Shown here: positions 24,271 to 36,003 of the stretch, piece after piece
Layout: each line of letters starts with the position of its first letter
Numbering within the stretch: position 1 is the first letter of the stretch
Source: Bacteroidota bacterium
Lineage (GTDB): Bacteria > Bacteroidota > Bacteroidia > 2-12-FULL-35-15
Length of the DNA stretch: 64,000 bases
Assembly: GCA_947449315.1 (NCBI GenBank)
Contig: CANFRC010000003.1
Coordinates: 62,001-126,000, forward strand
Reading direction: 5' to 3'
The notes under the pieces: model-generated
The model's database searches: none
What the model saw: only the letters and a program-made list of their open reading frames with translations
Told to the model about the DNA's origin: nothing
Made by a program: the position numbers and the translations under genes

Positions 24271-25290
24271 TTAGATGGTCCATGTGTTTTTGCCCTTGAT
24301 CAAATCATCCAAATTTCCTTTCCCCTTGCTTTCAATTGCTTCTGTAATTTGCGCATTCAATTCATCTTCATAACAGAATCTTTCTTCTTGATAAAAAACT
24401 CCGAAAGGACGAGGCAATGCATGTTCATTGGATGGAATATCAAAAAATCGAACCAAAATATTTGCCTTTACCTGATCTTTTTCATCATGAATCCAAAGAT
24501 CATTAGCAGAAACATCTGACAGATTAACGACCGTTGGCTTAAATCCATCTAGTTTAATTCCTTTATCCGCATTTTCACCGAAGACCAATGGTTTACCATT
24601 CTCAACCATCAATGTATTTAATTTCTTCGTTCCTTTTTCAGTAAACACTTCAAAAGCACCATCATTAAACACATTACAATTCTGGTAGATCTCTAGCATA
24701 GAAGTGCCTTTATGCCCATTAGCACGCTTTAATATTTCACGTAAGTGAATAGGGTCGCGGTCCATGGAGCGTGCAACAAAAGTAGAATCTGCTCCTAAAC
24801 ACAATGCAAGAGGGTTAAATGGATGATCAACAGAACCAACTGGTGTGGACTTCGCCACTTTTCCTACTGGTGAAGTTGGGGAATATTGACCTTTTGTTAA
24901 TCCGTAAATTTCATTATTGAACATCAACACATTTACATTAAAATTTCTGCGCAATAAATGAATCAAATGATTTCCACCAATCGATAATGCATCACCATCA
25001 CCGGTAACGATCCAAACACTAAGATCGGGTCGGGTGGCTTTTAATCCACTAGCAATAGCGGTAGCACGACCATGAATGCTATGCATCCCGAACGTTTCCA
25101 TATAATAAGGAAAACGGGAAGAGCAACCAATGCCAGAAACAAAAACAATTTGTTCACGAGGAATGCCAAGCTCTGGCATTACGGTTTGAACTTGTTTTAG
25201 GATCGAATAGTCTCCGCAGCCAGGGCACCAACGTACTTCCTGATCGGTTACAAAATCTTTAGGGGTTAATTTTATTTCGGCTGTTTCCAT
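24271..25290 (-). CDS. korB: 2-oxoacid:ferredoxin oxidoreductase, beta subunit
   Basis: The 339-residue subunit binds thiamine diphosphate: the motif is [20 protein letters not shown] with [27 protein letters not shown] near residues 21-31 holds two of the cysteines for the single [4Fe-4S] cluster, with Cys further along (SGIGCSSRF and [10 protein letters not shown]). With KorA it converts 2-oxoglutarate or another 2-oxoacid to its acyl-CoA while reducing ferredoxin. Its ATG overlaps the korA stop by one base (TAATG), so translation is probably coupled. Substrate choice (2-oxoglutarate rather than pyruvate) is inferred from the family. Confidence 0.93.
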
Positions 25291-27137
25291 TATTTTAACA
25301 TCTCCACAATTTTATTTTTTAACTCTTGTGATGTAAAAGGCATTCCTTGTATTTTATTTAATCCTTTAGCGTCAACAAAAAATTTATCTCTGATCACTTT
25401 TATCAATTGACCGTTATTGATTTCGGGGATCAATACTTTATCAAAGCTTTTCAGGATATCGCCTAAATTCTTTGGAAAAGGATTTAGGTATTTCACGTGA
25501 GCATGAGAAACATCATACCCTTCTTCAATGGCTTCTTTTATTGCAGTTTTAATTGAACCATAAGTGGAACCCCAGCCCAAGACCAACAACTTCCCTTTTT
25601 CCTTTCCATTATCAATCACTTGTAATGGAATATAATTAGCGATGTTATCCACTTTTTCCTGACGCAATTTAACCATCAATTCGTGATTGTCAGGATCATA
25701 TGAAATATTCCCCGTTTCATTTTCTTTCTCAATCCCTCCTATTCTATGCTCCAATCCTTTTGTTCCGGGGATGGCCCAGGGACGGGCCAATTTTTCGTTG
25801 CGTTTGTAAGGTAAAAATGCTTCGCCTTCTTTCAAATTATTTTTTGCAAAAGAAACTTTCAGCTCTGGTAAATCAGCTGCAGATGGGAATTTCCAAGGTT
25901 CTGCACCGTTGGCAATATAACCATCTGTCAAAAGGAAAACAGGAGTCATAAACTCTAAAGCTAAGCGACACGCTTCAAAAGCACCGTAAAAACAGTCAGA
26001 AGGGTTGTATGCAGCAATAACAGGAACGGGTGATTCACCATTTCTTCCATATAAGGCTTGTAGAAGATCGGCTTGTTCTGTTTTAGTAGGTAAACCAGTA
26101 CTTGGGCCACCGCGTTGCACATTTACAATAACAAGCGGCAATTCTAGCATCAATGCTAAACCGATTGCTTCACCTTTCAAAGCAATTCCTGGCCCTGATG
26201 AAGCAGTGATACCCAGTGAGCCACCAAATGATGCACCAATAGCAGATGTTATAGCGGCAATTTCATCTTCCGCCTGAAATGTTTTTACGCCAAAATTTTT
26301 ATGTTTTGACAATTCATGCAAAATATCGGATGCTGGAGTTATAGGATAGGTTCCATAAAATAATGGCAAGCCTGATTTTTCTGCAGCAGCAATCAAACCC
26401 AATGCTAAAGCCTGATTCCCCATTATGCTTCTATAGGTTCCTTTTGAAACAGGAGCCGGCTTCACTTCAAAACGATGCATTGGTGCTTCCACCGTATCGC
26501 CATAATTAAATCCCGCTTTTAATACCTTAATATTCGCATCAATTAATTCGGGACGTTTTTTGAATTGCTCTTTTAAAAATTCAATTGACTTGTCCAAAGA
26601 ACGATTGTACATCCAATAGATATAACCCAACACAAACATATTCTTCGAGCGATCCATCTCCTTTGTGCCAAGACCTGAATCAGCTAATGCAGTGCGTGTG
26701 ATCTTTGTAATATCGATTTCGTAAACTTTAAATTTTTCCAACGATCCATCCTTCAATGGATTTATTCCATCTGGGTATTTTGCGAGTTTTAAATTTTTAG
26801 GGTCAAAGCCATCTGTATTTGCAATGATAATTCCACCGGCTTTCAGCTGCTTCATATTTGCTTTCAAAGCAGCCGCATTCATAACAACCAATACATCACA
26901 TGCATCACCAGCTGTAAATATTTCAATACTTCCAAAATGCAATTGAAATCCTGAAACTCCCGCAATCGTTCCTTGCGGAGCGCGAATTTCGGCAGGAAAA
27001 TTAGGAAAGGTACTAATATCGTTACCATACAATGCAGCAGTCGTTGTAAACTGAGAGCCGGTCAATTGAATACCATCGCCTGAATCGCCTGCAAAGAGGA
27101 TGACTACATCTGTTTTTATTTCTGTTGTTAAACTCAT
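25290..27137 (-). CDS. korA: 2-oxoacid:ferredoxin oxidoreductase, fused gamma-alpha subunit
   Basis: This 615-residue protein fuses the gamma domain (about residues 1-190, with [16 protein letters not shown] and [20 protein letters not shown]) to the alpha domain ([65 protein letters not shown]). That is the usual layout in Bacteroidota KorA. I start at ATG 27137 rather than the TTG/ATG 42 bases upstream because the family begins with a short hydrophilic stretch before [11 protein letters not shown] candidate leader with its own promoter, a short ORF and an intrinsic terminator ends 64 nt upstream. A TAACTTTG -7-like box at 27189-27196 could give korA a private promoter. Confidence 0.93.
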
Positions 27138-27200
27138 ATTATTTAAAATCAAGAACCTCAAAGATTGATAAAGGTTCAAACTGTTTTACAAAGTTAATTT

Positions 27201-27238
27201 AAAACAAAAAGGTTTTTCCATTAATGGAAAAACCTTTT
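27201..27238 (-). terminator. Intrinsic terminator upstream of korA (possible attenuator)
   Basis: Stem AAAGGTTTTTCCA / TGGAAAAACCTTT (27208-27220 / 27225-27237) with a TTAA loop, followed on the minus strand by TTGTTTT. It lies between the 27-codon ORF and korA on the same strand. An A-run on the other side makes it partly bidirectional, but the nearest plus-strand gene starts further right. Confidence 0.8.
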
Positions 27239-27268
27239 AAATACGTAATGTTAATATATTTATAAAAA

Positions 27269-27352
27269 TCAATCCAAATAGGTGTTGAACATACAATACA
27301 TATAACAGCAAGATGTAATTATTTGTTTAGATTGATTCATTTTGTTTTTCAT
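27269..27352 (-). CDS. 27-residue Cys/Tyr/Met-rich short ORF (candidate leader peptide of korAB)
   Basis: This short ORF begins with MKNKMNQSK and contains SCCYMYCMF: three Cys, three Tyr and several Met in a short run, unlike the surrounding proteins. A full-consensus promoter ends 10 nt before its ATG, so the transcript would be almost leaderless. An intrinsic terminator follows 31 nt after its stop, and korA begins 64 nt past that. The arrangement is that of a transcription-attenuation leader whose translation could sense Cys or another amino acid. I see no strong alternative antiterminator pairing, so an independent small RNA or microprotein gene is equally possible. Function is unknown. 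Confidence 0.45.
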   Translation of the reverse strand: MKNKMNQSKQIITSCCYMYCMFNTYLD

Positions 27353-27362
27353 TTCTATGACA

Positions 27363-27392
27363 CAAATGTAAGGATAATTGTTTATCGGACAA
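27363..27392 (-). promoter_or_regulatory. Consensus promoter of the korAB leader transcript
   Basis: On the minus strand TTG (27390-27392), exactly 19 nt, then TACATTTG (27363-27370), matching TAnnTTTG. Transcription should begin near 27357, a few bases before the short ORF at 27352. Confidence 0.75.
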
Positions 27393-35931: not shown

Positions 35932-36003
35932 TGGCTCCGCTCAGAATCGAACTGAGATCAAAAGTTTAGGAAACTTCTATTCTATCCATTGAACTACGGT
36001 GCC
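35932..36003 (-). tRNA. tRNA-Arg (anticodon CCT) with an A4-A69 acceptor mismatch
   Basis: The 72-nt cloverleaf has D stem GTTC/GAAT, anticodon stem GAAGT/ACTTT around loop TTCCTAA (anticodon CCT, decoding AGG), T stem CTCAG/CTGAG with loop TTCGATT, and discriminator A. The acceptor arms GGCACCG and CGGAGCC pair at six of seven positions; position 4 is A opposite A69 (A4 is at 36000). CCA is not encoded. The mismatch is odd for an otherwise standard tRNA and deserves a read-level check. Confidence 0.9.

Follow-up and report, generated by a model that had tools for sequence, protein, structure and literature searches.

A probable cysteine-responsive transcription attenuator ahead of korAB in uncultured Bacteroidota

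The region upstream of korAB in the Bacteroidota genome studied here is very likely a ribosome-mediated transcription attenuator that would read the level of charged tRNA-Cys, and in these Bacteroidota the output of korAB, a central carbon enzyme, probably rises when cysteine runs short. A leader-peptide attenuator had been suggested at this place in an original prediction made from the letters of the window, by which we mean the whole stretch of 64,000 nucleotides that was analysed. This suggestion is now supported by a conserved layout, an anti-terminator, and sister leaders in front of sulfur genes. Comparison of related genomes brings out a promoter, a Cys-rich ORF, a terminator, mutually exclusive complementarities and a linkage of these elements to korA, and likewise the sister leaders. 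KorAB is presumably an iron-sulfur enzyme that makes or uses reduced ferredoxin.

Table 1. Features of the korAB leader region (window coordinates)
Feature	Position	Strand	Basis
Promoter P1, Bacteroidota-type, TTG-N19-TACATTTG	27363..27392	(-)	sequence; box kept before korA in relatives
Leader ORF, 23 codons, MNQSKQIITSCCYMYCMFNTYLD	27269..27340	(-)	conserved start, in-frame indels, Cys content
Possible segment 1 UGAAUCAAUCUAAAC; partner 27265-27279, on the other side of the Cys codons	27325..27339	(-)	p 0.01, this genome
Candidate anti-terminator 5' strand (UGGA uu GAUUUUU...), over the leader stop codon	27257..27276	(-)	duplex energy, shuffles
Segment GUAUUUAAAAGGUUUUUCCA, common to anti-terminator and terminator	27225..27244	(-)	near-invariant AAAAGGUUUUUCC core
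Intrinsic terminator hairpin, 14-bp stem, loop TTAA	27207..27238	(-)	folding; relatives
Terminator T-tract TTTTTGTTTT	27201..27210	(-)	sequence
Second -7-like box TAACTTTG; may be a basal korA promoter (P2) lacking a good -33	27189..27196	(-)	sequence, relatives
korA, 2-oxoacid:acceptor (ferredoxin) oxidoreductase alpha subunit	25290..27137	(-)	PF01855, PF01558; TIGR03710 above cut-off
korB, beta subunit	24271..25290	(-)	PF02775; best NCBIfam TIGR02177 PorB_KorB, slightly below cut-off

The features lie where the original prediction had placed them (Table 1). The perfect promoter described on the korA strand is present, with TTG at 27392-27390 and TACATTTG at 27370-27363 separated by N19 when the minus strand is read directly. 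The strong hairpin with a T-tail ahead of korA is confirmed by sequence and folding; its arms are 27238-27225 and 27220-27207, and the korA ATG lies at 27137. Across 16 korA leaders, 98.6% of the terminator cells are paired, and the same comparison reveals no covariation in a stem that is near-invariant. The leader transcript folds far more stably than its shuffles (z -4.6). When both strands of the 64-kb window were scanned for the succession of a promoter box, a short ORF containing at least three Cys and a perfect hairpin with T-tail, this was the single place found, and six Markov-simulated windows gave none. No Rfam covariance model matches the leader at gathering score. The sole match in the window is a tRNA gene elsewhere (35932-36003, minus strand).

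The short ORF has two candidate starts, ATG 27352 (27 codons) and ATG 27340 (23 codons), which share a stop at 27271-27269 and the ending ...SCCYMYCMFNTYLD. The first ATG is particular to this genome and absent from relatives, in which the second is the conserved start. The leader is therefore taken to be 23 codons long, starting about 16 nt past the inferred transcript start near 27356. Thus, the Cys/Tyr-rich ORF originally proposed is real as a Cys-rich ORF, its conserved version having 23 rather than 27 codons, and the distance to the predicted transcript start is not the five or so bases first given. Over 16 korA leaders, Cys makes up 62 of 375 residues (16.5%). Met is also frequent (47/375), and the signal may for this reason be broader than cysteine, i.e. 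sulfur amino acids. The Cys motif reads CCYMYC here and CCNMCC, CCKCF, MCCKxxTCGxCF, MCPWKCC or CCMCCC in relatives, and one leader (L002) has two Cys codons only. In the genus alignment, gaps inside the ORF are of 3 or 6 nt only, whereas those outside it are of any size. With pN/pS values of 0.38 and 0.88 in two subclades, selection at the amino-acid level is weak, which is expected of a leader peptide yet is no proof of translation. Indels that keep the frame, and the clustering of Cys in one subclade (for example MCCKxxTCGxCF), could also be read as marks of a functional Cys-rich microprotein, binding metal or redox-active, that stands before korA by chance. We regard this as most improbable, since lineages differ in how many Cys they have (2 to 6) and in how these are spaced, the remaining sequence is free to change (pN/pS up to 0.88), the peptides are 20-26 residues long, and what is conserved around the stop codon is the RNA (GGATTGA) rather than the protein. 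Codon content that is held while the peptide sequence drifts looks instead like the leader-peptide mode of evolution.

The same arrangement is found beyond this genome. Searching 59 genomes with the korA protein yielded 30 upstream regions, the related records being MAGs of uncultured Bacteroidota. Counting this one, 12 genomes of the genus have the unit of promoter, Cys ORF and terminator before korA; in one of the genus elements (L008) a clear start codon is missing. In three genus loci (L013, L020 and L027), the promoter and the hairpin are kept before korA and the Cys ORF is lost; these could possibly serve as natural knock-outs for comparison. A covariance model built from 12 sequences was applied to the class (296 genomes) and, separately, to the orders of two hits, and the genus and order searches with the leader model covered an identical set of 36 genomes. 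Outside the genus, Cys leaders precede korA in L144, L145, L146 and L148 (the same as L084), with the peptides MNPSGLSVLMCPWKCCHNLIGRD (L144), MNKPVNRIRPCKEMCWCYPINRD (L084/L148), ...NMCCCMMCAVNSGRD (L146) and ...SKCCMCCCTLCSD (L145). These add three genera and two families, making four genera and three families in all. The model matches on the korA strand at 16 of 80 named korA loci, and a separate scan added few other Cys ORFs. Such a leader is lacking from most of the other regions upstream of korA (Sediminibacterium, Flavobacteriales, Chitinophagaceae and others). The comparison of korA upstream regions that was proposed together with the original prediction has thus revealed a short Cys ORF that is conserved both within the genus and in three genera outside it.

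A convincing anti-terminator had been missed at first; a candidate is present, and its position is conserved in all 16 elements. The segment GGAUUGAUUUUU, lying over the leader stop codon, pairs with the terminator 5´ arm AAAAGGUUUUUCC in 16/16 elements in about the same register, in the form GGA, a 2-nt internal loop and GAUUUU, with GGAUUGAYUUUU as the consensus of the stop segment. The helix is longer in L001, L003, L144, L145 and L084. In this genome, the duplex has an energy of -11.6 kcal/mol, is equalled by 1 of 300 shuffles (0.003), and is among the better-scoring ones; individual shuffle p values range from 0 to 0.08 over the 16 elements, to be read with the caveat that A/U-rich segments make some chance pairing easy. 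In all korA leaders folded, RNA that ends with the 5´ arm has the anti-terminator helix as its minimum-energy structure, and in 13 of 16 no other stretch of the transcript pairs better with the terminator arm than the segment over the stop codon (30-nt sliding window). With about -6 to -13 kcal/mol, this helix is less stable than the completed terminator (-14 to -17 kcal/mol). Covariation of the anti-terminator, sought in the 16 elements, was not found, as the terminator arm is constrained twice and nearly invariant. RNAalifold on the first genus alignment missed the helix because it competes with the terminator.

Other pairings in the leader were also considered. An anti-terminator formed by an untranslated 5´ GGAAAAC, seen in some genus members, was rejected, since it is absent from the second subclade and the stop segment is the better partner in 13/16. 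A stem between segment 1 and segment 2 as a conserved feature was likewise set aside, being significant in this genome only and not in other korA leaders. Between the Cys codons and the stop segment lies a small hairpin that covaries, with two-sided changes in five of six pairs, and none of 500 shuffles matches its paired cells, although relatedness of the sequences inflates these counts. It is poorly formed in this genome.

Attenuation at this locus would proceed as follows. RNA polymerase would initiate at P1, and the 23 codons of the leader would be read by a ribosome. If cysteine suffices, this ribosome would run on to the stop codon and lie over GGAUUGAUUUUU, so that the terminator hairpin can fold and the RNA is released about 150 nt from its start. 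When cysteine is short, the ribosome would stall at the Cys codons about 10 codons before the stop, and GGAUUGAUUUUU, remaining free, would pair with the terminator 5´ arm and allow transcription to continue into korAB. The anti-terminator and terminator pairings are predicted to be mutually exclusive, and a ribosome at the stop codon could mask the former, given the complementarity in 16/16 elements. That a ribosome masks the segment at the stop and leaves it free at the first Cys codons is what the size of the ribosome footprint would lead one to expect. Stalling, read-through and cysteine as the signal are what we infer from the arrangement of the sequence.

Of the 12 genus elements, 10 have TAnnTTTG past the terminator, frequently accompanied by a TTG within the terminator 3´ arm. 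The second -7-like box that had been suggested to feed korA directly is accordingly conserved within the genus; it is absent outside it, where no such box follows the terminator in L144, L145, L146 or L084. In the window's genus, the box may add basal or constitutive transcription of korA, and through it korA may escape control. In the three other genera, the hairpin has no second -7 box behind it, so that transcription of korA seems to require read-through. A conserved box past a strong terminator, together with a terminator-to-korA distance of about 20 to 260 nt, would also suit an independent terminated small RNA in this genus, possibly acting in trans, with korA transcribed from the second promoter. 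We find this unlikely, because the Cys codons, the stop position and the anti-terminator are all kept, none of which a plain small RNA needs, and because korA outside the genus lacks the TAnnTTTG box. The two readings are compatible and can coexist at the locus. A free small RNA or microprotein had originally been given equal weight with attenuation. Both now seem less likely, since the Cys cluster is kept while the peptide drifts and no second -7 box is found in three genera.

An attenuator that responds to cysteine is in keeping with the company of the korA leader. The same model found further Cys leaders in the genus, namely MKTINFHKKINSYSTMMCCMTCCI and relatives before cysC-cysD, and MNNNFTYTLTSSNSPMMCCMMCA and relatives before a siroheme nitrite/sulfite reductase or a homoserine dehydrogenase. 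Other families, too, have comparable leaders before cysC-cysD or the reductase (L147, L149, L150 and L151), the genes there having been recognised by eye from their likeness to those of the genus. Leaders with Cys codons, terminator and anti-terminator stand before cysC-cysD in L048, L049, L055, L057, L059 and L150 (near 1501-1680); in L057 the automatic terminator finder chose the wrong hairpin. Cys leaders before the siroheme nitrite/sulfite reductase are found in L056, L058, L062, L147, L149 and L151; the best matches of this reductase are to ferredoxin-type NirA families, below cut-off. Anti-terminators of the sister Cys leaders take the form GGAAAGNC:GNCTTTCC, and GGAAAGCC, GGAAAGAC or near variants directly follow the stop and are complementary to the next terminator arm. 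Some reductase leaders have a second Cys-rich short ORF in the gap between terminator and gene (MIQMYCCMCKNHRRKCCY in L151, ...MCMCCMNH... in L062). The Bacteroidota cysC-cysD leaders are apparently an undescribed cysteine attenuator of sulfate assimilation. His-rich leaders with terminators, MKNTTHIHHHHTCSKGKL and MNLIVFQHHYHHLFDQSR, were seen in the genus before hisG-like genes (by eye) in L051, L052 and L053 (near 1501-1652). On account of the sister Cys leaders and of the His-rich leaders before likely hisG, these bacteria seem to employ leader-peptide attenuation, the cysteine kind included, on a regular basis.

The genome of the window has cysC-cysD-cysN. Its own cysC leader (L152, contig C4), MSKYGAMVYCMIRYF, has lost most Cys codons and kept the anti-terminator, and the korA leader is therefore the better-kept Cys leader in this genome. 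No PF01077 sulfite reductase was found in the genome, and for this reason cysteine or reduced sulfur may be taken from outside. The degraded cysC leader, the missing reductase and the loss of the ORF in three genus loci could be taken to mean that the terminator and Cys ORF before korA are decayed or neutral remains, functionless now in this genome. This seems highly doubtful to us, as the korA leader here still has a perfect promoter, three Cys codons and a terminator of 14 bp, and its anti-terminator scores among the better ones. As for the choice of korAB as a target of cysteine attenuation, one possibility is co-regulation for ferredoxin supply where a siroheme reductase exists, which offers no explanation for the present genome. 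Alternatively, cysteine could serve as a proxy of Fe-S assembly.

Classical trp and his attenuators combine control codons, a stop over segment 2 and mutually exclusive 2:3 and 3:4 pairings, and attenuators usually act on amino-acid or tRNA-synthetase genes, not on a 2-oxoacid:ferredoxin oxidoreductase. The korA leader resembles trp and his in its control codons, the stop over segment 2 and the exclusive pairings. It differs in that a segment 1 pairing is well supported in this genome only, in having a covarying extra hairpin before the stop, and in its target outside amino-acid biosynthesis. In Rhodobacterales, the uORFC-8-2 motif before cysS has tandem conserved Cys codons and an intrinsic terminator, and tRNA-Cys attenuation has been proposed (PMC8632094). 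It shares with the korA leader a short upstream Cys ORF, an intrinsic terminator and proposed ribosome-mediated attenuation via charged tRNA-Cys, but belongs to Alphaproteobacteria, has cysteinyl-tRNA synthetase as target and carries the Cys codons within a stem (PMC8632094). Cysteine-responsive leader peptides of Actinobacteria, found before cysteine genes, have similar Cys runs near the stop of a short upstream ORF; there, no intrinsic terminator was found, attenuation is described as translational, and phylum and targets are other than those of the korA leader (PMC1262725). Polycysteine leaderless ORFs are mentioned for mycobacteria (Canestrari et al. 2020, as cited in PMC13236596). In Flavobacterium psychrophilum, leader-peptide attenuators are reported before amino-acid operons and are like the korA leader in phylum, promoter type and inferred general mechanism, and the passage on them names neither cysteine leaders nor a korAB target (PMC9723704). 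A link between korA and attenuation was not found in open PMC papers; within these, phylum and target appear undescribed, while the mechanism is classical.

We lean, by a little, towards the existence in several Bacteroidia lineages of a cysteine-starvation attenuator regulon that comprises sulfate activation, siroheme reductase, homoserine dehydrogenase and korAB, and that ties the supply of cysteine (or Fe-S) to the production of reduced ferredoxin and central carbon flow. If true, cysteine supply would be wired directly to ferredoxin-linked carbon metabolism in these organisms, and the sequence signature would allow the remaining members of the regulon to be located.
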